DNA from: Anaerolineae bacterium
GTDB lineage: Bacteria; Chloroflexota; Anaerolineae; Anaerolineales; E44-bin32
Length of the DNA stretch: 64,000 nucleotides
Direction of reading: 5' to 3'
NCBI GenBank assembly: GCA_011174825.1
Contig: DUEZ01000076.1
Span: 25,457-89,456 of the forward strand
Shown here: one piece after another, positions 24,337-49,111 of the stretch
Position numbering within the stretch: position 1 is the stretch's first letter
Layout of the letters: each line of letters begins with the position of its first letter
Position numbers and translations under genes: made by a program
The notes under the pieces: generated by a model
What the model saw: the letters and a program-made list of their open reading frames with translations, nothing else
Told to the model about the DNA's origin: nothing
The model's database searches: none

Positions 24337-25313
24337 TTATTCAACTGCCGACCAAATGATCGTGTCGGGCCTGAAAGCCACCCAAGCGAACCAGAAATGC
24401 TCGCCAGCAACAATCGATTCGAGTCTCTGCCCGGTCAATGGTCCATCAATCGCCTCACCGATGATGTTCCACAGACTTCCGGTTTGATCGTCTCGAAAAC
24501 CATCGTCCTCCGCCCGGAAGGTTAGAACCTGATCGTCAAGCTGGCGCAGAAACACGCTCGTTGAACCTACATCTAAATCTGAATTCCCGAATGTGGTTCT
24601 GGTTCCTTCCTTCCAAAAAACGACTGGTGGCAATCCAGCGACTTCATCATTCACGACCAGGATTTCACGAAGCACAATGAAGGGATAAGCCACGTCGATC
24701 CCTTCCAGTTGAATTGCGACCACCCTTTCTACAGGTGGAAGACGTCCATCCAGGGCGCCCTCATATAAGTATGGGTAGTTATTGATGCTGTCATAACCCA
24801 AATACGGATTTCGTCCGTAGGATCGGTTAAAACCTGTGTCTCGTGATAGATCAGGATCGTTAACGGATAAGCTCTTGTGTCATCGTCCAACTTAAAAAGC
24901 ATAATTGGCCAATCTTCACCTAACCACTCGTCAGCTTCACCCACGCTCTCGAAGACAGGATCATCGATTGAGGGTATTCCATCCGGAGGCGGTCCTCCCG
25001 ATATGATTTCACCATAGTCGACGCTATGGATTGTAAAATCGGTATCCGGCCAGTATGCAGTGTTGAAACGCAGTCTTATCCCTGCAAAGGGGTCTTTGTC
25101 TACCAACAGTTCCTCCTGTTGATCCACCGCTGTTTGACTAGGATCGATAGCCTGCGGCATCGGTTCTGCAGTAGCATTTTGCGTTCCAATACCCGAGACC
25201 GCTCCTGGAGCAACCGCGGTCGCACATGCTGCTAACAAAAGGCTGAATCCAACGATAATAAGATACGGTCGAAGATGAAAATTACGTATCATTCTCTTCC
25301 ACCTCACTTTCAA
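24337..25313 (-). pseudogene. DUF3179 lipoprotein gene with internal deletion and frameshift
   Basis: The 5' part (25313 to about 24841) starts with a lipoprotein signal (IIVGFSLLLAACATA) and runs through EWLGEDWPIMLFKLDDDTRA and AYPLTILIYHE, the N-terminal DUF3179 block. The 3' part, in another frame (about 24840-24337), starts DTGFNRSYGRNPYLGYDSIN and continues to a normal C-terminus. In intact family members roughly 90 residues, including a conserved Cys-containing TFCPLCN-type motif, lie between these two blocks. Here they are missing and the frame changes at the join (about 24840-24843). This is a deletion with frameshift, so no functional product is expected. The 5' frame would give a 194-residue truncated lipoprotein. 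It sits beside TlpA and CcdA genes. Confidence 0.88.
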
Positions 25314-37025: not shown

Positions 37026-37922
37026 ATGCGTTTCGGTATCATGACGATGCAAGTCGACACTCTCATCCCTTCCGGCTTACCAGTCGATCAGATGTTGGCT
37101 CACGTCGCGGGCTTTGACTATGCGCAACTTGTCCGCAGGATGGTCGAATCTGGATTTCGAACCATCGAGCTTGGAGGCGATCTAGCACTTTTCTTGCCCA
37201 TGATCTTCGATCAGAACTCTATCGAAAGGTTATCTGAAGTTAAAGAGGAACTCGATCTAACGTACACGGTGCACTTACCTCTATGGTCTGTAGAACCATC
37301 GACGCCCCTTGAACCTGTACGGAAAGGGTCAGCGGATGCGATTGTCGATTTCATCCATTCTGTCCTGCCGCTTAACCCTGAAGTGTACGTTTTTCACGCG
37401 ACCGGAGCATTGGCCGCGGAGTTCTACCGCATGAACCTTCCCAAGATTGCTAAGATCGTCATCCTCCAACAATTCCAAACCAAGGCTGCCGAAAGCCTGC
37501 GCTGGATCCTCACCGAAACCGGTATCCCCTCTCGCGAAATAGCCATCGAGACCATCGAATTCCCCCTCGACTTAACACTTGACCTTGCTGAAGAGCTTGA
37601 CTTGTCCATCTGCCTCGATACCGGCCACGTTCTTTCTGGTTTCTCAGGTAATGTGACGGTTGAAGATGCATTGGAAGCCAGCTTGCCACGTTTAGCTGAA
37701 GTCCACCTGCACGATGGACCCCAACACAACCCCGAGCAGGAGATCGTCTATGGACTGGATCATCGTCCACTGGGAACCGGTGATCTCAACCTTGGATTTA
37801 TCCTTGATCACCTCATAGCTGCAGATTTCAATGGGCCAGTGATCTTTGAGCTCCAATTGTACGAAGCGCTGGATTCTCTCAATGTGATTAAGAGCCTCCG
37901 CCCTGATCTCCCTATCGAGTAA
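37026..37922 (+). CDS. Sugar phosphate isomerase/epimerase-like TIM barrel
   Basis: 298 residues. The AP-endonuclease-2/xylose-isomerase-like fold is shown by FRTIELGGDLALFLP near 48, YTVHLPLWSVEPSTP near 80, EIAIETIEFPLDL near 160, ICLDTGHVLSGFSG near 195 and LAEVHLHDGPQHN near 227, which together supply the His, Glu and Asp metal ligands. GTGDLNLGFILDHL near 250 and VIFELQLYEALDSL near 275 complete it. It may isomerise a sugar or act on inositol-type compounds. AAAAGGAGA lies ten bases before the ATG. No partner gene identifies the substrate. Confidence 0.85.
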   Translation: MRFGIMTMQVDTLIPSGLPVDQMLAHVAGFDYAQLVRRMVESGFRTIELGGDLALFLPMIFDQNSIERLSEVKEELDLTYTVHLPLWSVEPSTPLEPVRKGSADAIVDFIHSVLPLNPEVYVFHATGALAAEFYRMNLPKIAKIVILQQFQTKAAESLRWILTETGIPSREIAIETIEFPLDLTLDLAEELDLSICLDTGHVLSGFSGNVTVEDALEASLPRLAEVHLHDGPQHNPEQEIVYGLDHRPLGTGDLNLGFILDHLIAADFNGPVIFELQLYEALDSLNVIKSLRPDLPIE

Positions 37923-38098: not shown

Positions 38099-38266
38099 AT
38101 GAGCCCGATGGATATGTTGATCTTAAAACGGTTGTGGCGTTTTATCGTTCGTATGGATGTGGTGTCTATCCTCATCGTCCTTCTGTTAAGTCTTGCTGCA
38201 CCAGGGTCATTGTTCACCCAACTCCCCTCCAAGATCGAAACTGACCTGAGCACATTAGTGCCGTGA
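38099..38266 (+). pseudogene. ResB/CcsB N-terminal fragment
   Basis: A 55-codon frame starting at 38099 reads LKRLWRFIVRMDVVSILIVL followed by SLAAPGSLFTQLPSKIETD, which matches the first transmembrane helix and the GSxFPQLP segment of ResB cytochrome c biogenesis proteins. Intact ResB is 300-600 residues; everything after this segment is missing, and the UGA at 38264-38266 overlaps the next gene's ATG by one base. It is most likely a truncated remnant, though a small one-helix protein cannot be excluded. Confidence 0.6.
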
Positions 38267-38830
38267 TGTTCTGGAAATATGACCCGCTTGAGCTAACATC
38301 CGCTCAGCGGGTGGAATTGTTTTCATTAGCCCGAACAACCCTCGCAGAGTATTTGAAGACCGGCACCTTACCTGACTATGAGACAGACGATCCCGTACTC
38401 TCGCGCCGTTTAGGTGCTTTTGTTACCCTGAAGAAAGACGCGGAACTATGAAGCTGCATCGGAAGCCTACGAAACAACTTACCCCTCTATCAGGTCGTGC
38501 AAGAGATGACTGTTTCCGCAGCTACATCAGACCCTCGTTTCCCACAGTTAACCTTGGAGGAATTCGATCTGATAAGCATTGAGATCTCTGTGCTATCGCC
38601 TTTAAAACGGATCACGGACATCAACATGATCGAGGTTGGGACGCACGGGCTTGTATTCCATCAGGCAGGGATGCAAGGCGTACTCCTACCACAAGTTGCC
38701 ATTGAGCAGGGCTGGGATCGTCAGGCTTTCATCGAAAATGTATGCCTCAAAGCAGGACTTCCCCGCAATTGCTGGCAGGAAAAATCCGATCATGTACACC
38801 TTCACGGCGCTGGTGTTTGGTGAGGAGTGA
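38266..38830 (+). pseudogene. amrA: AMMECR1-domain protein AmrA, with in-frame UGA and a one-base frameshift
   Basis: The frame starts at the ATG at 38266 and reads LTSAQRVELFSLARTTLAEY and RRLGAFVTLKKDAEL, then UGA at 38449-38451, then SCIGSLRNNLPLYQVVQEM and AATSDPRFPQLTLEEFD in the same frame. The UGA stands at the Arg of the conserved ELRGCIG motif, so CGA to UGA is likely. A second lesion follows in a run of five A at about 38782: removing one A restores NPIMYTFTALVFGEE, the normal C-terminus, ending at 38830. AmrA belongs to the AmmeMemoRadiSam set (AMMECR1, Memo, radical SAM) of unknown function. The radical SAM gene amrS follows three bases later; no Memo gene is in the window. Confidence 0.88.
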
Positions 38831-38833
38831 GAT

Positions 38834-39865
38834 ATGAAAGCCCCTCTTTCCAGCCATAGGGAGGCTCGCCTTCAAGAAGTGGCTCAGGGTAAGGTACGTT
38901 GTCTTCTCTGTGAAAGACGTTGTCTGATCATTGAGGGGGGAAAAGGATGGTGTCAGACAAGATACAATCAGAATGGCATCTTGTTTACCTCAATCTATGG
39001 TGCCGTTTCCTCCCTTTCGGCCAATCCCATTGAGAAAAAACCCTTGTACCACTTCTATCCAGGAAGCCGAGCTTTGACGGCTGGCAGTTGGAGCTGCAAT
39101 TTTGGCTGCCCTTGGTGCCAAAATTGGGACATAAGCAAAACACCGCCTCCTGCGCGGTGCCGCTTTATGTCGCCAAAGGCTTTTATCGAAGAGACCATCC
39201 GTCTGTCCTGTCAAGGGACGTCGATCAGCTTCAACGAACCGACGCTCTCTTTTGATTGGTCGTTGGAGGTTTTCCAGCTAGCCCACGAGCGTGGTCTCTA
39301 TAACACCTTCGTCACAAATGGGTATATGACAGCCACAGCGCTCGATCTGCTCCATGGTGCAGGTTTGGATGCGATGAATGTAGACATCAAAGGGAAAAAG
39401 GGAGAGGTCAGAAAATATTGCCAGGGAATTGATGTCGATCGAGTTTGGGCTCGCTGCCAACAAGCGAGAGAACTCGGGCTGCATATCGAGATCACAACCT
39501 TGATCATCCCCGGAGTAAATGACGATGTCGAGAGTTGTGTCGAAATCGCGAACCGTATTGCTGATGAGCTAGGATGTGAAACGCCGTGGCACGTAAGTGG
39601 ATACCACCCGGCCTATAGATTTGTTTCACCGTCTACACCAATCTCGACCCTCGAGCTGGCTTGGGCGATTGGGATGGACGCAGGTTTGAAGTTCGTCTAC
39701 CTGGGTAATGTCCCCGGGCATCATAAGGACAACACCTATTGCCCGCGATGCGGGGCAACGTTGATTGAACGACGAGGCTTCTTCATGAAGCAAAACTTGA
39801 TGGAGAATGGCCGTTGTTACGCTTGCGGGGAATCTATTGCCGGTATGGGATGGAATTGGTGTTAG
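38834..39865 (+). CDS. amrS: AmmeMemoRadiSam system radical SAM enzyme
   Basis: 343 residues. The cluster motif CNFGCPWCQNW places the three [4Fe-4S] cysteines at 88, 92 and 95, the CxxxCxxC pattern for SAM cleavage. An N-terminal Cys set (23, 26, 30, 40) precedes it. FNEPTLSFDW near 135, NVDIKGKKGEVRKYCQG near 183 and LIIPGVNDD near 219 are typical of the AmrS/PflA-like family. The last 45 residues form a zinc-ribbon-like end (YCPRCG and CYACGES). The chemistry is not known for the family. It lies three bases after amrA and is undamaged, unlike its neighbour. Confidence 0.92.
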   Translation: MKAPLSSHREARLQEVAQGKVRCLLCERRCLIIEGGKGWCQTRYNQNGILFTSIYGAVSSLSANPIEKKPLYHFYPGSRALTAGSWSCNFGCPWCQNWDISKTPPPARCRFMSPKAFIEETIRLSCQGTSISFNEPTLSFDWSLEVFQLAHERGLYNTFVTNGYMTATALDLLHGAGLDAMNVDIKGKKGEVRKYCQGIDVDRVWARCQQARELGLHIEITTLIIPGVNDDVESCVEIANRIADELGCETPWHVSGYHPAYRFVSPSTPISTLELAWAIGMDAGLKFVYLGNVPGHHKDNTYCPRCGATLIERRGFFMKQNLMENGRCYACGESIAGMGWNWC

Positions 39866-39943: not shown

Positions 39944-42900
39944 TTAGATTCCCCTCCCCATCCGAACCCGTACGATGTGGTGCCCCGGTTCGCCATCTAA
40001 TGGAATCTCAAGCTGTGTAAGTCGCTGGCCATCCAACTCAACCCACGCCACATCACTGGACACATGATCCGGGTTCTCGAAAATAATTTCGTAATGTGAA
40101 TCACCTCTCCGGTAACGCATTGTAAATTGGTCCCAGTATGAGGGGATAGCAGGCTCGATTCGAAGCGTTTCCCCACGCAGCTTAAACCCTAGAACTTCCT
40201 CAATCCAAACGCGGTACATCCAACCAGCTGACCCGGTATACCAGGTCCACCCACCCTGACCAATCTTTCCAAGTAGGTTATATACATCCGCAGCAACGAC
40301 ATACGGTTCTACCATGTAACGTTCTGCTTCTTCAGGTTCTTTAGCATGCTCAATTGGATTCATGATCCGGAGCAACCACGCTGCCCGATCTCCATCCCCT
40401 TGTTGAGCCAATGCCATGGCTAACCATAACGAACCGTGCGTATATTGACCGCCATTCTCACGGACGCCCGGTGGATATCCCATAATATAACCTGGGTTTG
40501 GCTTCGACTTGTCAAATGGCGGTGTAAAGAGAAGCACCAGCTTATCTTCCTCTCGGACGAGTTGATCGACCGCTGCATCCACCGCTCGCTTTGCTCGCTG
40601 TTGATCAGCCGCTCCGCTGATGATCGCCCACGACTGGGGCAGCGAACCAATACGGGCTTCTTGATTCGTGATCGATCCGAGCGGGGTTCCATCATCGAAA
40701 TAAGCTCGCCGATACCAATCTCCATCCCATGCTTCACCCTCGACAGCCCGCGCTAAACTACGCGTTTCCTTCCGATATTTCTCCGCGAGGTCGCTTTCCC
40801 CTTTCAGATCCGCTAACTCGGCAAACCCATGGAGCACATCGATCAAGAACCAAGCGAGCCAGACACTTTCACCTCTTCCCCCATCTCCAACCCGATTCAT
40901 ACCATCGTTCCAGTCACCGATACCGATCAGTGGCAATCCATGAACACCGGATGTAAGACCACGATCGATCGCTCGACGACAGTGCTCGAAAAGTGTAGCA
41001 GACTCGAGTGTTATGACTGGCGTCATGAAAACTTCGTTCTCGTCCTCTTCTAATGCTGGACCCTCTAAAAATGAGATCTCCTCGTCAAGGATAGCCTCAT
41101 CACCAGTTGAGTTCACATAATGAACCACAACATAGGGTAGCCAAAGCAGATCGTCTGAAAAGCGAGAGCGGATTCCACCCCCGCCTGGTTGATGCCACCA
41201 ATGTTGGACATCACCTTCTCGGAATTGCCTGCTCGCTGCTAACAAGATGTGGTCCCGGGCGATCTTCGGGGCTGAGTAGATCAACGCCATGACATCCTGA
41301 AGTTGATCACGAAATCCGAACGCGCCGCTGGATTGATAGAACGCAGATCGACCCCAGACACGGCAACTCAATGTCTGGTAGAGAAGCCAATGATTGATGA
41401 GAAAGTTCGCTGAAAGTTCTGGGGTCTCCACCTGAATGTTTCCTAAAAGGTTGTCCCACCATCTTGTGGTTCGAAGCAGCGCTTCTTCCACTCCGAGATC
41501 TTCTCGATACTTACCTACCAACCGTCGAACTTCTTCTACGGAGCCGGCTTGGCCGAGAAGGCAAATCACATCTGTGCTCTCACCAGGGGCTAACTCTAGC
41601 TTGACCTGCATTGCTGAACATGGATCCAATCCTGCTCCGGTTCGGTTGGAGAGCTTTAGTCGTTTCATGGCATCTGGATCAGCCAGAGTGCCGTTCCGCC
41701 CTATGAATTCGTTATTGTCACCGGTGATGCTATGTGGGGCGGGATTTATCGCGCTAAATGCGATCCGATCTCTATAATCGGCGTTGTATCGGTTTCTGGC
41801 CAAGATCACTTTTGATGTATCGTCCCACTTCGTCTCGACGTGTTGTTGAGTCTTTTCTCGATCATCACCTAACGTCCACTCTAGATAGAACGTGACAGAC
41901 AACCGCCGCTTCTTCGATGAGCCATTGCGAAGGCGCAATCGTTGCACGCGAATTGGTTCCCCACCCTGATCATCCATCGGCACAAAGGTGACCAACTCCT
42001 GCTCGATCGAGTGGCTATTGTGTTCGAAGACCGAAAAGCCAGCCCCATGTCTTGTTCGATACGCATCCAACTCTCGAATAGGTAGGGGAGTGGGTGTCCA
42101 GAATTTCCCTGTCTCCTCATCGCGGATGAAGATCGTGTCGGGTGGCGGATCGCTTACTGGGTCATTAGACCAACGGGTTAGCCGATTCTGTTGGCTATTC
42201 CCATACCAAGTAAAACCCGACCCGGACTCGCTGATCAAAGTGCCAAAAGTCGGATTCGCAATGACATTCACCCACGGTGCCGGTGTTTGATCCTCAGGCC
42301 CAAGGTAGATCGCATAAACACGTCCGTCGTGGGTAAATCCACCTAAGCTGTTGAAATACGCAAGATCCATGTAGGGCAGGGGCGCAGATGGCTCCTCGGG
42401 GACGAAAGATATTGACAAGGGGGAGGGATATTCCGTTGTCTTAGAACGACCAGCCAGCTGTTGATGTAAGGAGCCCCGAGAAGCCACCAAAGATACCCGT
42501 GCGACGGCCAACATAAGGGTCAGATCCTCCTCTGAGATCTGATCCACATTGAGCAGGAAGACGCCATCGGATTGACTAACGCCGGTAAGTGAAGATTGGG
42601 CTTGGATCAGCCTTTTAAGTTCCTCGTTCAACGGCTGCTCATAACTGCTCGATTCCTCATTCAGGATCACCAGATCAGCGTTCAACCCATGCTGGTGCCA
42701 GTACGAATGCGCTTGCAGCATTTGTCGCGCGAAATTGAGATCAGCCCCTTCAGCGATACTCAGGACAGCAATGGGCTTATCTCCTGAAATGCCATAAGGC
42801 CAGAGGCGTGACTGATCAAGCTCGTTTTGCCTAAGCACCTCTCCGGGTGGACGAAATGTAGCACTGGGATAGAGCATATAACTGGCTAGCTGTTGAAAAC

Positions 42901-45900
42901 GACGGGCATCGTCCGGTTGAATGCGTAATTGACGTAACTCAACCTGAGCTTGGACCCAAGCTAAGTCAAGTGCGCGATCAACGGATTGAGATTCACGATA
43001 TCTGTCCAGCAGGTTCAGCAACTTCTCGCGGGTTTCAGCTACGCATAGGATCAAAGTAAACCGTTTCCTCTGTCTAGGCTTCAACACCACTTCACGACGA
43101 ATACTTAAAATCGGATCCAGTACCGCCCCCTCTGTATTGGTTAACTCTTGGTTTAAGGCAATCGGAGCAACAGTTGTGTGACCACGACCGATGAAGCGTC
43201 GTCGATCGGTCTCGAATTGTATCGACGCTTCCAAGGTAGGATCATAGGTAATCAAGTGACCAACCCAGATGGGAGGGTCATCTTCGTTCCGTGGTCGACG
43301 CGAAGCAATCAATGCCCCAAGATTAGGGACAAACTCTGTTTGGATAAATAGTTTATTGAAGGCTGGATGTTGACGATCGGTGTTATGAGGAGCCATGGCT
43401 AGCTCAAGATAGCTCGTAACCTCTAGCTCTCGCTGACGGTTCGTGCGATTAATGAGCGTGATACGCCTGATCTCAACGTTATCCTCTGGCGAGACGGTGA
43501 TCACACTCTCACTTTCGATACCGTCATCGGAACGGCGGATCTCAGCTCGATCAATGGTGAAGCTCACGGCGTAATTGTCCATCTTCCCGCCAACTGGTTG
43601 GAAAGTGTTGCTCCAAACCCTGTCCGTCTCCGTATCGCGGAAGTAACAGAAGGTTCCCCAGTTATCACGGGTGGTGTCCGCCCTCCAGCGAGTGATATCA
43701 ATATCGCGCCAGCGGCTATAGCCCCCACCGGCGCCACTTATCAGCAAGCTATATTCTCCGTTACTTATGAGTTGTGTAACGGGTGTCGGCGTATGTGGGG
43801 TATCGAATTTGCTTACCGAGGGCGCTACCTCGGCGCTTGATGCAAGTGAACCAGCATGCTCTCGCCTAGGAAACTCATTCAATGGTGGTGCAATCGGAAT
43901 CCGCTCATACAAGAGAGGCTCCGTTGCCCTAACTCGCGCATCGGAATGAAATCGTCTCTGCAATGGCTGATCGTTTAAAAGGCTGTTGATCGCGAGAAAT
44001 CCCATCGCCTGGTGATGAGCCATGTAGGTTCGGGCAGGTACGCCGCGTTTCCCATCACGACTACGATGTCGGCTGAAATCAATGGCGTCATAGTAACCGT
44101 AGCTATCATGGAGTCCGATCTGATCTAATCTTTTCAGATTACGAATCGCTGCTGCCGGATCTATCATGAGGGCTAACAGTGTGGCGTATGGCGCGACGAC
44201 TAATTCTTCCCCAAGCCCTCGTTTGAGACCCAAACCAGGTACTCCGAAGGCCTTATACTGATAGATCCTATTATTATCCAGATCACTGAAGGCCGATTCG
44301 GAAATCCCCCACGGAACACCTCGTTGGCGTGCGTAATCGATTTGTTGCGCCACTGCCTCACGCGCAGCCATATCGAGCAGTGAATTTTCAAATCCCTTTT
44401 GAAGCAGCAGTGGCATCAAGTACTCGAACATCGTCCCAGTCCAACTGAGTAGAAGATGGCGATTGCCTACTCTAGCGAACGGACGTGATAGCGCTAGCCA
44501 GTGATCGCTTGGAACGTCACCTCTAGCGATAGCGACGAAGCTGGCTAAACGAGCTTCACTTGCTAACAGATCGTAATAGGATGGATCTAAATGCTGCTCG
44601 TTGAGGTTATACCCGATAGAAAATAGTCGGCGGTTTGTGTCATAGAGGAACCGCATATTCATACTATCGCCGAGGTCCCGTATCCGATGGATAAGATCCG
44701 CTACGTTGGAAAGCATCTCCCCAGCAAACCATTTCGATCGAGAATAATCTTTCCTGATACGATTTACCCATACTTCGAGCTGCTCCGGGGGATCGGACAA
44801 TTGTTTATACTCAGATTCTAAGACCTCGATGAAATGAATGTCTCCAGAAGCAATATCTTTTAACGATAGGGGCGATTTCAAGAAATTTCGGTAGGCATCC
44901 TTTACCCTACTGTTGAAAAGATCTATGTTGTCCTTTGATTCCCGTAAAATAAATTCAACCCAGGGAAGATAACGATCAATTAATTCCACCCAAGCCATCA
45001 ATTGCTGTTGTACCTTTTCAGACCAATAAACCGCTTCACTGTCCAACTGAGAATCCTGCTTTAAGAGAAGGACAAGGTCATCAACAGAATTGACTGCGAA
45101 CCAAATGTGTAAAATAAATTCTTCGAGATTCTTGGGTTTCGTTAAGAACATTTCTTCAAGTTTCACGAAGATTTCATTGTGTCTTCCGCGATGATCAATC
45201 CTGTTGAGCACTTCACGAAGGATTCGTAGCGTATCAATCACTCCCCGAGAAGCTTGTTCACCAAAGAGTGGCGAGTCGATTACCTCCTGAATTCCTTGAT
45301 CGAGTGCCCAGAGACTTCCTAAGAGATTTCCACTATCGACAGTAGAAACATAGCGCGGCATCAACGGGCGAAGGTTCTGAAGTTCATACCAATTAAGTAG
45401 ATGCCCTTCAAACCGTTCGAGATTATCAATCGTATTGAAGGTCTGAGTCATCAAGTTAACGAATTGATCACCTGTCACGTAACCGAAATCGTAAGCTCCC
45501 AACGCACTCAACAGCCAAAGCCCAATGTTTGTTGGGCTGGTTCTCATCGCCAGCTCTTTACGATGCGAGATCTGATAATTATCTGGCGGCAGCCATTTCG
45601 TATCAGAGCGCACAAAGTCATCGTAGAAGCGCCATGTTTCTCGTGCAATTCGCCTCAGCATCTGCGAATCTCTATCCGAGATTTGTACCTGACGCGGCGT
45701 TCGGTCAGGCTTGACAGCAAGCCACATTGCAACAAATGGACTGATAAACCAAAGAAGTAAGAAGAACCCTGCAAAAATCAAACTGAAGGGTTCAACCCAA
45801 AAAAGCAATCCCGTTAGGCCAATAGAAAGAACGCTGACCATTCCCATATGGAGATAAAAAGCTCGATCGTGGCCGGAAACATCCCATTGTGCCATTTGGG

Positions 45901-48900
45901 CTGGCGTCCATTCGAGGAGTTTACGATGGCTGATTAATCGTCGATACCAAACCCTAAACATCGCATCGATGGACAGACCGGCTTGATGAGGCAGAAACGA
46001 GAGTTCGATTAAAACGTGAATAAGATCATGACCTAACTCTCGCCATGAGATATCAACTGATCCTGATGGCAAGGTCATCCAGGTCACAAGTTTTGATATC
46101 GGTCGGAAGAGAGCTAAAAAACCAGCAAGCAAGCCAGCGATGGCCCCAATAACGGGTGATATTAGCCAGGTTGTTATGAGCATGAGAACAGTAGCAGGCG
46201 AAACCAAACTTCGTCGCAGGTTATCGAATATCTTCCATCGGTTAAGCGCACTTAGCTGGTTCGGTACCCGACCATCCGGTCCTGGCACCCAAGGCGTGAC
46301 CCAATCAGCGATCTGCCAATCTCCCCTGATCCACCTATGTTGCCGAATAGAGTAGGCTTGATAATGGGTCGGAAAATCATCAAACAACTCAATGTCGCTA
46401 GCAAGCCCGACCCTCATGTGTGCGCCTTCGATCAGATCATGGCTAAGGATTCTCCCCTCCGGGAATCGACCTCCTAGAACGCGATGGAAAACCTTGGGAT
46501 CATAAATACCCTTGCCGTGGTAAGAGCCTTCTCCCGATAAATCTTGATAGACATCCGAAACCGCTTTGGTGTACGGATCTGCTCCGATGGGATCTGTGAA
46601 GAGACGGCTAAATCGTGTTGCGTTGGCGCTTGGCAAGGAAGTACTAACTCGGGGCTGAATAATGGCATAACCCTCGCGGATGGCATTCCCCTCCGCCGAG
46701 AGTTTTGGTTGGTTCAAGGGGTGGGCCAGAGTCTCGATCATTCGTCGAGCACCATCAACGGGGAGTTGGGTGTCGCTGTCTAACGTAATCACAAAACGGA
46801 TGTCACCCAAGTGGTCTGCGCGTCCAGCATGGAGGATCCCTTCATCGGTGAGTGGTGACTCACCAATGAGCAATCGATTAAGATCTTCTAACTTACCCCG
46901 TTTACGCTCCCAACCGATAAAACGATCTTCCGATTCAGACCACTCACGTTCCCGATGGAAGAGATAAAAACGAGCTTCGCCATAGAATTGATTGAGGTTC
47001 TCAATGCGCTCGACAGTTAAACCGAGCAACTCTTCATCACCATCCATCCGCTGAGCATCGGCATCTGCGAAGTCACTAAATAATGCATACACCAGGTTTG
47101 GATCTGGGTTTGCTAAATAGCGTATCTCCAGCTTAGATACTTCATCGAGAATCGTCTCTCGATCGATCAATATAATCGGTACCACAACCAGTGTGCGGTA
47201 CTCCTCAGGAATTCCTCCCTCCTCGAAGGACAATTTCGGCAAGGTTCGTGGTGGCAATACCCGCGTTACGAGGTAATTTACGAGAAGAACGGCAAATTGA
47301 CTGGCGGGGAAAACGGAAACCAGGGAAACACCTGCAAATAACAGTTGAGATCGAACACCTACCAGGTTCATCAATACCAGTACAAAGCCAACTGCGATAA
47401 CACTCAACAAGCTGATGGAAGAAATATATAAAAAGGAGTGATATCGATAGATCCACTGTAGCGTACGATGTCGACGAATATCGCTACACGCAAGTCGATC
47501 AACCAATTGGTTTCGTCCCATGCCCACTAAGTAATAACCGATGTGGTTGTGCAACGAGTCCTCAGGATAGTCGGAAGCCATCTCCACTGACAACTTTGCC
47601 ACATGATCCTCTGCAACACCTGCACAGACTGCCAGTTCCTCAACCGCACGACGGTAACGATCGCGCGTATCGAAATCCATGTGGGAGTAAATACCTGCAG
47701 GATCCGAGCGTAGCACGACATCGACGCGACTTTGATCCTCAAAAATCTCGCGCCAATCTAAGAGCGCTAACTGCCGTAGGCTGGTAATCGCGTTTCCGAT
47801 CGAGGTGTGATCGGATGCTAGTCGAGATTGTTCTTGATGAATGATCTCATCCAGTTCGGTATTCAGCTTCCGTTCAAGCCAACTTTGAACCAAGAGGAGA
47901 GCTGTCTCCTCATCATATAAATTTCCCATGAGCTGAGCCGCGAAATACATGCTCGGTTCGGGAACTTCAGCAATGAGTTCATTAAAAATAGAAAAAAGCT
48001 GATCCGGATCTCGACGCGAAAAAGTGAGTAGTCGATTGGACCAGTAGTCAGCGACCTCATTTTCACGCAGGCTCTTGCTCACCTGTTCAACAAGCTGTCG
48101 CAAGCTATCGATCAAGGCAATACGCAACATCAGAGGCAATGCCCATAATTCCCCTATTGTCAGCGTTGCGATGGCTTGATAGGCTTCAAGAAAATCCGTT
48201 ATATTATGACGATCAAGCCTCCCATCCGTATGCCTGATCAGCTCGACTGATAGCTGATAAACTCTTGGCTCAACCTTCTGACCTTCAGCTGCCAACACAG
48301 GAAGCTGCTCGTAAAACTTCTTCGACAGGTTAAGACGAACGTCATTAATATGCCTTTGTACAATGTATGCGTTATCCAAAATCCATTCAGCTGAGGTCGA
48401 GATCGGCAATTCCATATGGGATGCATCCACCAATTCCGAACGGATAGACTCGATTACGTCTTCACAAATCCTTAGCTGCTCATAAAGCACTTCATCATGA
48501 GCCGTATCGGGTCGGAATAGATGGCTAGCAGCAAGTTGAGCTGCATGATCCTTTAGTTCAGCTGTTGATAACGGTTCAGCTTGGAGTGGGTTCTGATCAG
48601 CTTCAATTTCTCGCTCGGGGTGAATGACAAAGATTGAAGGTTGAGATTCGGTGTAATCTTGGAGTAAATGGAATGCGTCATCCATAGACTCTAGGGTAGT
48701 TTGGGCAATAACGACCGTTTCCCCAGAAACCAAGAATCGCATCGTCTTTTCGACGAGCTTCTCATCGATCCCAAGTCTAAATACACGAAAAAAAACTCTC
48801 GCCGACAAACCACCTGGCACCCCCCCAAAAATACCCGTAATTGCCAGAATGAAGGAATCCGACAAAATCCATGGGTTTCCTTTTGCGACAATCCACAACA

Positions 48901-49111
48901 CCCCCGCTAGTACACCAAGAATCGATCCAAGGATAATACCCCAATAAGTAAATTGCCTTTTTGAAAACATCCTTATGGTGTGGTTCTTGTTCGGTGATTT
49001 GTGCATAAGACACGCACGTAGGAATCGATTTCGTCGAAGCTGTCGATAAGCTTCGATGCCGTCTTCTCGGTTTGCGTAAAAACCGATGAGGATTCCCATA
49101 TTGCTCATCAT
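39944..49111 (-). CDS. Giant cyclic beta-1,2-glucan synthase-like protein (GT84, GH94-type and middle glycoamylase-like domains)
   Basis: 3055 codons, one uninterrupted frame. Two helices near 57-105 follow a short cytoplasmic start. Two further helices lie near 570-630, before the GT84 glycosyltransferase at about 640-1030, with VITLDSDTQLP near 774 (DxD). More helices follow near 1035-1180. A middle domain at about 1220-1720 (YVSTVDSGNLLGSLWALDQG near 1240, LSWTGTMFEYLMPLL near 1560, YMAHHQAMGFLAINSLLND near 1700) resembles the cyclising domain of cyclic glucan synthases. Two sugar-binding sandwiches near 1790 and 2300 lead to a GH94 phosphorylase-like barrel with SSGAFGFRDQLQD near 2597 and IGIGDWNDGMNRV near 2732. 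Family knowledge: UDP-glucose is polymerised to beta-1,2-glucan, trimmed and cyclised. The product is probably periplasm- or surface-located glucan, but Chloroflexota usually lack a classical outer membrane, so the destination is unclear. An ATG at 49099 is an alternative start. Confidence 0.9.
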   Translation of the reverse strand: MMSNMGILIGFYANREDGIEAYRQLRRNRFLRACLMHKSPNKNHTIRMFSKRQFTYWGIILGSILGVLAGVLWIVAKGNPWILSDSFILAITGIFGGVPGGLSARVFFRVFRLGIDEKLVEKTMRFLVSGETVVIAQTTLESMDDAFHLLQDYTESQPSIFVIHPEREIEADQNPLQAEPLSTAELKDHAAQLAASHLFRPDTAHDEVLYEQLRICEDVIESIRSELVDASHMELPISTSAEWILDNAYIVQRHINDVRLNLSKKFYEQLPVLAAEGQKVEPRVYQLSVELIRHTDGRLDRHNITDFLEAYQAIATLTIGELWALPLMLRIALIDSLRQLVEQVSKSLRENEVADYWSNRLLTFSRRDPDQLFSIFNELIAEVPEPSMYFAAQLMGNLYDEETALLLVQSWLERKLNTELDEIIHQEQSRLASDHTSIGNAITSLRQLALLDWREIFEDQSRVDVVLRSDPAGIYSHMDFDTRDRYRRAVEELAVCAGVAEDHVAKLSVEMASDYPEDSLHNHIGYYLVGMGRNQLVDRLACSDIRRHRTLQWIYRYHSFLYISSISLLSVIAVGFVLVLMNLVGVRSQLLFAGVSLVSVFPASQFAVLLVNYLVTRVLPPRTLPKLSFEEGGIPEEYRTLVVVPIILIDRETILDEVSKLEIRYLANPDPNLVYALFSDFADADAQRMDGDEELLGLTVERIENLNQFYGEARFYLFHREREWSESEDRFIGWERKRGKLEDLNRLLIGESPLTDEGILHAGRADHLGDIRFVITLDSDTQLPVDGARRMIETLAHPLNQPKLSAEGNAIREGYAIIQPRVSTSLPSANATRFSRLFTDPIGADPYTKAVSDVYQDLSGEGSYHGKGIYDPKVFHRVLGGRFPEGRILSHDLIEGAHMRVGLASDIELFDDFPTHYQAYSIRQHRWIRGDWQIADWVTPWVPGPDGRVPNQLSALNRWKIFDNLRRSLVSPATVLMLITTWLISPVIGAIAGLLAGFLALFRPISKLVTWMTLPSGSVDISWRELGHDLIHVLIELSFLPHQAGLSIDAMFRVWYRRLISHRKLLEWTPAQMAQWDVSGHDRAFYLHMGMVSVLSIGLTGLLFWVEPFSLIFAGFFLLLWFISPFVAMWLAVKPDRTPRQVQISDRDSQMLRRIARETWRFYDDFVRSDTKWLPPDNYQISHRKELAMRTSPTNIGLWLLSALGAYDFGYVTGDQFVNLMTQTFNTIDNLERFEGHLLNWYELQNLRPLMPRYVSTVDSGNLLGSLWALDQGIQEVIDSPLFGEQASRGVIDTLRILREVLNRIDHRGRHNEIFVKLEEMFLTKPKNLEEFILHIWFAVNSVDDLVLLLKQDSQLDSEAVYWSEKVQQQLMAWVELIDRYLPWVEFILRESKDNIDLFNSRVKDAYRNFLKSPLSLKDIASGDIHFIEVLESEYKQLSDPPEQLEVWVNRIRKDYSRSKWFAGEMLSNVADLIHRIRDLGDSMNMRFLYDTNRRLFSIGYNLNEQHLDPSYYDLLASEARLASFVAIARGDVPSDHWLALSRPFARVGNRHLLLSWTGTMFEYLMPLLLQKGFENSLLDMAAREAVAQQIDYARQRGVPWGISESAFSDLDNNRIYQYKAFGVPGLGLKRGLGEELVVAPYATLLALMIDPAAAIRNLKRLDQIGLHDSYGYYDAIDFSRHRSRDGKRGVPARTYMAHHQAMGFLAINSLLNDQPLQRRFHSDARVRATEPLLYERIPIAPPLNEFPRREHAGSLASSAEVAPSVSKFDTPHTPTPVTQLISNGEYSLLISGAGGGYSRWRDIDITRWRADTTRDNWGTFCYFRDTETDRVWSNTFQPVGGKMDNYAVSFTIDRAEIRRSDDGIESESVITVSPEDNVEIRRITLINRTNRQRELEVTSYLELAMAPHNTDRQHPAFNKLFIQTEFVPNLGALIASRRPRNEDDPPIWVGHLITYDPTLEASIQFETDRRRFIGRGHTTVAPIALNQELTNTEGAVLDPILSIRREVVLKPRQRKRFTLILCVAETREKLLNLLDRYRESQSVDRALDLAWVQAQVELRQLRIQPDDARRFQQLASYMLYPSATFRPPGEVLRQNELDQSRLWPYGISGDKPIAVLSIAEGADLNFARQMLQAHSYWHQHGLNADLVILNEESSSYEQPLNEELKRLIQAQSSLTGVSQSDGVFLLNVDQISEEDLTLMLAVARVSLVASRGSLHQQLAGRSKTTEYPSPLSISFVPEEPSAPLPYMDLAYFNSLGGFTHDGRVYAIYLGPEDQTPAPWVNVIANPTFGTLISESGSGFTWYGNSQQNRLTRWSNDPVSDPPPDTIFIRDEETGKFWTPTPLPIRELDAYRTRHGAGFSVFEHNSHSIEQELVTFVPMDDQGGEPIRVQRLRLRNGSSKKRRLSVTFYLEWTLGDDREKTQQHVETKWDDTSKVILARNRYNADYRDRIAFSAINPAPHSITGDNNEFIGRNGTLADPDAMKRLKLSNRTGAGLDPCSAMQVKLELAPGESTDVICLLGQAGSVEEVRRLVGKYREDLGVEEALLRTTRWWDNLLGNIQVETPELSANFLINHWLLYQTLSCRVWGRSAFYQSSGAFGFRDQLQDVMALIYSAPKIARDHILLAASRQFREGDVQHWWHQPGGGGIRSRFSDDLLWLPYVVVHYVNSTGDEAILDEEISFLEGPALEEDENEVFMTPVITLESATLFEHCRRAIDRGLTSGVHGLPLIGIGDWNDGMNRVGDGGRGESVWLAWFLIDVLHGFAELADLKGESDLAEKYRKETRSLARAVEGEAWDGDWYRRAYFDDGTPLGSITNQEARIGSLPQSWAIISGAADQQRAKRAVDAAVDQLVREEDKLVLLFTPPFDKSKPNPGYIMGYPPGVRENGGQYTHGSLWLAMALAQQGDGDRAAWLLRIMNPIEHAKEPEEAERYMVEPYVVAADVYNLLGKIGQGGWTWYTGSAGWMYRVWIEEVLGFKLRGETLRIEPAIPSYWDQFTMRYRRGDSHYEIIFENPDHVSSDVAWVELDGQRLTQLEIPLDGEPGHHIVRVRMGRGI

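Follow-up and report, generated by a model that had tools for sequence, protein, structure and literature searches.

The locus at 38099-39865 of the window (the whole 64,000-nucleotide stretch of Anaerolineae DNA that was analysed) is best explained, with a probability of about 0.85, as what remains of an exported AmmeMemoRadiSam operon, of which the last gene, amrS2, was kept. In the proposed course of events, one deletion would have fused codon ~50 of resB to the start of the AMMECR1 half of a Memo-AMMECR1 gene, another would have taken a speE-like gene, and the AMMECR1 stump would later have gained a nonsense change and a +1 shift. AmrS2 itself is most likely a cytoplasmic radical SAM enzyme with a [4Fe-4S] cluster on C88/C92/C95. 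It would act independently of the exported fusion, and any AMMECR1 or Memo that it needs would come in trans from the separate genes on other contigs. The locus belongs to a natural deletion experiment, in which the exported AMMECR1-Memo-AmrS set disappeared from three sister species, each of which kept AmrS2.

Features of the locus

The window organism (G000) was compared with two sister species, CSMAG_2273 (G001) and W167 (G002), and with Anaerolineaceae bin52 (G004; CP070708.1), which belongs to the same genus; all genomes compared are MAGs. The locus and its left flank comprise the following features.

37026..37922, + strand: xylose-isomerase-like TIM-barrel gene (PF01261), the left flank, also kept in sister species G001 and G002
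38099..38266, + strand: resB remnant, a 55-codon ORF in which the ~50 5′ codons of a ResB-like gene are followed by ~5 junction codons and then a stop
38247..38262, + strand: deletion junction, with limits taken from blastn against G001, G002 and G004
38266..38830, + strand: AMMECR1 remnant, apparently left from a lipoprotein Memo-AMMECR1 fusion as its C-terminal half (profile match, tree)
38449..38451, + strand: in-frame TGA replacing the Arg of L-R-G-C-I-G (homolog comparison)
38781..38785, + strand: AAAAA run with one extra A, a one-base frame shift relative to intact relatives (sequence comparison)
38822..38827, + strand: GAGGAG, a plausible ribosome-binding site of amrS, 6 nt 5′ of its ATG
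38834..39865, + strand: amrS, subfamily AmrS2, an unbroken ORF of 343 aa that starts 3 nt after the AMMECR1 remnant

Because the isomerase-like gene on the left is common to the three species, the locus is syntenic in the window, G001 and G002. On the right lies an NdvB-like cyclic glucan synthase/phosphorylase gene of 3055 aa (39944-49111), a flank also found in G002 and G004. Elsewhere in the window, at 24337-25313, there is a second broken gene, DUF3179-like, which is split over two frames and lacks ~100 codons by comparison with an intact 414-aa homolog in G017 (L049 3730-4974).

The resB stump directly upstream of AMMECR1 had escaped the earlier note. It is 76% identical to residues 1-50 of the G002 ResB and 33-48% identical to the ResB of intact operons, and its stop, TGA 38264-38266, overlaps the ATG of AMMECR1 (38266). 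Similarity to ResB ends at ~38246-38248 and similarity to the AMMECR1 fusion starts at ~38261. Missing at the junction are the remainder of resB, ccsB, TAT-amrS (the amrS with a Tat signal) and the Memo half of the fusion; these last three and the speE-like gene are absent from the window locus, which has no room for them.

The AMMECR1 frame opens at the ATG at 38266 and, when read through, gives a PF01871 match of 165 bits, far beyond chance. It also passes the TIGR04335 profile cut-off, yet the frame is not intact. Two lesions that the earlier note had pointed out were both found. The first is the TGA at the core Arg, in a motif that now reads L-*-S-C-I-G: the codon after the TGA is Ser where other sequences have Gly, so that both the Arg and the Gly of a trio (RGC) that is invariant in 64/64 distinct AMMECR1 homologs are changed. 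The second is the extra A, downstream of which the canonical C-terminus (...YTFTALVFGEE*, stop TGA 38828-38830) stands in the other frame; relatives have the same ending with no frame shift (YTFTASVFAED in G004, YTITALVFGEE in G002). The stump yields no complete AMMECR1. Its last two codons (Glu-Glu) are the GAGGAG that plausibly now serves amrS as ribosome-binding site, and a promoter scan of the coding strand at the locus gave nothing above chance. The amrS gene three bases further on is intact, as had been claimed: its product scores 256 bits over its full length against the TIGR04337 cut-off of 220, and both the radical-SAM motif (C88-NFG-C92-PW-C95) and the N-terminal and C-terminal Cys sets are preserved.

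Probable collapse of a Memo-AMMECR1 operon

The closest relative of the window AMMECR1 is the intact copy of G004 (76% identical), whose reading frame opens with the final residues of Memo (ILSYANSG...QVVGYGTV-MFWKYD). Memo and AMMECR1 form a single ORF in G022 and G017. Among 53 AMMECR1 domains placed in a tree, that of the window paired with the fused copy of G004 (100/99) inside a clade of fused AMMECR1, which was split 100/100 from stand-alone AMMECR1, including a second copy of the window organism; two stand-alone AMMECR1 of family f5 group with the fused side. The tree and the Memo tail of the G004 copy rule out that the window gene was a stand-alone amrA. The sequences point instead to a lipoprotein Memo-AMMECR1 fusion, apparently exported, of which this is the C-terminal half. 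The window thus keeps two marks of the exported Memo-AMMECR1 operon, an AMMECR1 half of the fused clade and resB on its 5′ side. The fusions of G017 and G022 (456-459 aa) have the same domain order and an AMMECR1 half in the same clade, but differ in that no signal peptide is seen and neither amrS nor resB-ccsB adjoins them.

The locus had been described as an AmmeMemoRadiSam locus without Memo. It is correct that no Memo was found in the 64-kb window, but the description misleads, since Memo was the deleted half of the fused gene. The view of a three-part locus lacking Memo did not survive either: canonical AMMECR1, Memo and AmrS all lie elsewhere in the genome (assembly of 3.85 Mb in 102 contigs, 91.9% complete, 6.1% contaminated). 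The earlier note had proposed looking in the whole genome for amrB and another amrA, and both were found: the sole Memo is at C65:42220-43017, on another contig (TIGR04336, 233 bits), which rules out an organism devoid of Memo, and a second, intact AMMECR1 is at C23:9604-10119 (TIGR04335, 185 bits). Two further AmrS above cut-off are on contigs C83 and C21. Neither a TAT-AmrS nor a second Memo was found in this genome. The organism has a complete canonical AmmeMemoRadiSam set as scattered genes, and the window locus is something additional. An apparent internal TGA in the C83 amrS is merely the terminal stop, and that gene is intact; it lies directly 3′ of a hydrogenase maturation gene, named hypE-like from its sequence (L004 349-2493).

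The gene-order comparison with relatives, also proposed in the earlier note, showed different collapses of the same operon. The window retains ResB 1-50, the whole AMMECR1 and amrS2. G002, flanked as the window is by the isomerase gene on the left and the NdvB-like glucan gene on the right, retains ResB 1-115, AMMECR1 from residue 76 to the end, residues 2-37 (a weak match) and the last 18 aa of the SpeE-like protein, and amrS2. G001 retains ResB 1-~110, the last 47 aa of the SpeE-like protein and amrS2. Among these sister-species remnants, speE fragments occur in G001 and G002 only. The last gene, amrS2, is intact in all three collapsed loci. From the three sets of remnants, which together give resB...AMMECR1-speE-amrS, and from the intact operons of other genomes, we infer that the ancestral order in the genus was resB-ccsB-TAT-signal amrS-lipoMemo-AMMECR1-membrane speE-like-amrS2. 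The amrS tree pairs G000 with G004 and leaves G002 and G001 outside this pair, and G004 still has TAT-AmrS and the fusion. Since G004 keeps these parts of the operon and the break points differ, the losses in the window, G002 and G001 would most simply be three separate events. A locus caught in decay, one of the options offered by the earlier note, fits these results, with point lesions on top of large deletions and other stages in two sister species.

Several observations count against the relic reading: the data come from MAGs only, the dN/dS of the AMMECR1 remnant is low, and 14/33 genomes with AmrS2 have no fusion. In addition, the G004 sequence consists of short contigs strung together by 100 N, and the operon in it is seen in pieces; it was rejected as a closed synteny reference because its single contig consists of many such pieces. 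There, the next gene after the fused AMMECR1, at a distance of 118 nt, is not speE but one for a ferredoxin + radical SAM protein (L047 9319-10502), which is not beside the fusion in other loci.

The 3-nt gap between the two window genes could suggest a normal amrA-amrS pair that was damaged not long ago, with AMMECR1 as the functional partner of this AmrS, and the co-occurrence of AmrS2 with the fusion described below makes a functional link in trans plausible. We nevertheless consider such a pair rather unlikely. The two genes became neighbours when the speE-like gene was deleted, and pieces of it still separate them in G002; this AMMECR1 is part of a fusion encoded in an operon that has a TAT-AmrS of its own; and AmrS2 is without an AMMECR1 or Memo neighbour in every other genome checked (none in 27 loci with flanks of ≤5 kb, save the G002 remnant).

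Selection on the stump and on AmrS2

The dN/dS of the AMMECR1 remnant against G004 was 0.168, and its dS of 0.90, near the 0.81 of amrS, fits vertical descent. For the C-terminal half of AMMECR1, the window branch was no faster than the branch of the intact G004 copy. Because the remnant shows so little excess amino-acid change, its lesions may be recent or partly artefactual. The low dN/dS also lends something to the possibility that amrA is whole in the living cell and that the TGA and the extra A are consensus mistakes of sequencing or assembly, as do the 102 contigs of this MAG and the fact that A runs are typical places for a base to be inserted in error. Error as the full explanation is quite unlikely, however: two adjacent codons of the invariant trio are changed, for which one miscall is insufficient; base errors cannot delete the Memo half, ccsB and TAT-amrS or join a resB stump; and two separately assembled sister MAGs have other deletions in the same operon.

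AmrS2 forms a monophyletic group of CNFGCPWCQNW-type AmrS (24 rows, 100/100), apart from canonical AmrS and TAT-AmrS, and occurs in Chloroflexota, Acidobacteriota, Methylomirabilota and Ignavibacteria. Its dN/dS was 0.083 against G004 and 0.109 against G002, and ~0.12 on the window branch alone. By these measures amrS2 is functional and under purifying selection, with no sign of relaxation, and with its Cys motif present the protein has predicted radical SAM activity. The loss of its neighbours in three species would also fit a gene with no function of its own that is merely the last to decay, but we give this little credit given a dN/dS of 0.08-0.11 between species whose operons collapsed separately, the integrity of all Cys motifs and the conservation of the subfamily in the lineages just named. 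Its retention after losses at different break points speaks for a role of AmrS2 that is independent of the exported set.

On the question of link or INDEPENDENCE, among 396 genomes of the class the fusion was found in 51, AmrS2 in 33 and both in 19, compared with 4.3 expected (p = 1e-10). Counted by genus, 13 were shared of 29 with the fusion and 24 with AmrS2, among 223 (p = 2e-7). Across genomes there is thus a link between AmrS2 and the fused system, in keeping with the position of amrS2 as the last gene of the operon in this genus. A conserved neighbour across phyla, sought as a clue to function, was not found beside AmrS2. The suggestion that AmrS works alone held in part: AmrS2 lacks amrA and memo neighbours elsewhere and was conserved after its neighbours were lost, but among 22 AmrS2 genomes AMMECR1 was present in 20 and Memo in 21, available in trans. 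"Alone" here means without the exported set, not without any AMMECR1 or Memo.

Recoding of the TGA, by selenocysteine or readthrough, so that the AMMECR1 protein is made, is hardly credible: a tRNA-Sec is present in the window organism's genome and the UGA lies two codons 5′ of a conserved Cys, but the site is Arg in all homologs including the closest ortholog and never Cys, no stable SECIS-like hairpin follows the UGA (z = +1.0), and a second lesion lies downstream.

The intact operon in relatives

The relic in the window is of moderate interest, and the operon behind it is more surprising. The fused gene was fetched from ~30 loci, which revealed a conserved operon of the order resB-ccsB-TAT-signal amrS-lipoMemo-AMMECR1-(SagB)-membrane speE. 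The TAT-amrS of one intact operon, in G065 (CP070811.1), lies at about C1:3,974,146-3,975,447. The resB product matched PF05140, the ccsB product TIGR03144 and the Tat-signal AmrS TIGR04337 (351 bits). The Memo-AMMECR1 fusion bears a lipoprotein-type signal peptide, e.g. PIVFFLLLSACAAP. A SagB-type nitroreductase with a membrane segment is sometimes part of the operon, and a membrane protein with a spermidine-synthase domain often is. Tat and lipoprotein signals, like the haem-c motifs below, were called as motif matches.

In 13 Chloroflexota loci, resB and/or ccsB lie directly 5′ of the Tat-signal AmrS and the fusion, several followed by speE. In all 13, the stretch of AmrS that separates the signal from the radical-SAM domain carries a CxxCH and then a conserved YCHxxH.

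L134, L135, L136, L168, L169, L171, L172: Tat-signal AmrS with CxxCH...YCHxxH, beside resB and/or ccsB
L173, L176, L178, L179, L180, L182: the same type of AmrS, with Tat signal and CxxCH...YCHxxH, beside resB and/or ccsB

The versions from Acidobacteriota and Ignavibacteria have neither CxxCH nor resB-ccsB (6/6), an association that gives p = 4e-5 in Fisher's test on loci that are not phylogenetically independent. CxxCH occurred at that position in 1/56 other AmrS, there within the usual Cys motif. A c-type cytochrome domain needs both CxxCH and System II maturation genes, and System II attaches haem outside the cytoplasm. In the intact operon, resB and ccsB fall into the families of System II ResB-CcsB (PF05140, TIGR03144), of which the window keeps a resB 5′ end; they differ in preceding a radical SAM gene and not a known cytochrome gene.

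The models of canonical AmmeMemoRadiSam, a system with no export signals (TIGR04335 AmrA, TIGR04336 AmrB, TIGR04337 AmrS), recognise all three components in intact relatives. The ancestral operon differs from it in having Memo and AMMECR1 as one protein with a lipoprotein-type signal, a Tat signal on AmrS (joined in Chloroflexota by a haem-c motif), and additional resB-ccsB and membrane speE-like genes; most of this operon is deleted in the window. From these sequences, the AmrS of the operon is predicted to be an exported radical SAM enzyme. Radical SAM enzymes are generally considered to be cytoplasmic. The intact operons, with a Tat-signalled CxxCH AmrS and its own cytochrome c maturation genes, suggest an extracytoplasmic form of AmmeMemoRadiSam.

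A joint reading, which we hold tentatively and at slightly under even odds, is that the lost operon encoded an extracytoplasmic AmmeMemoRadiSam system consisting of a Tat-exported AmrS with covalent haem c and a secreted lipoprotein Memo-AMMECR1, with AmrS2 as a cytoplasmic arm with a function of its own. If so, the ResB-CcsB of the operon would mature the haem c of CxxCH...YCHxxH, which would feed electrons to a radical SAM enzyme outside the cytoplasm. The prediction concerns where AmmeMemoRadiSam acts and where its electrons originate. None of the papers searched described a radical SAM enzyme that is exported, or dealt with the reaction of AmmeMemoRadiSam; those found mention the system only in passing, and one in eLife (PMC7159879) refers to "recently-described Memo-Ammecr1 systems", citing Burroughs et al. 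2019.

Two minor observations were made in these loci. Inside the exported operon, the SagB-type nitroreductases of L135 (6119-7246) and L134 (7110-8240) have a membrane segment that is DUF4405/cytochrome-b-like. The AmrS of G029 and G055 (L185 458-2923 and L186 438-2915, respectively) carry an intein-like insert of ~450 aa, which sits exactly before the third Cys of CxxxCxxC (GCDFHCAY-[insert]-CQNW).
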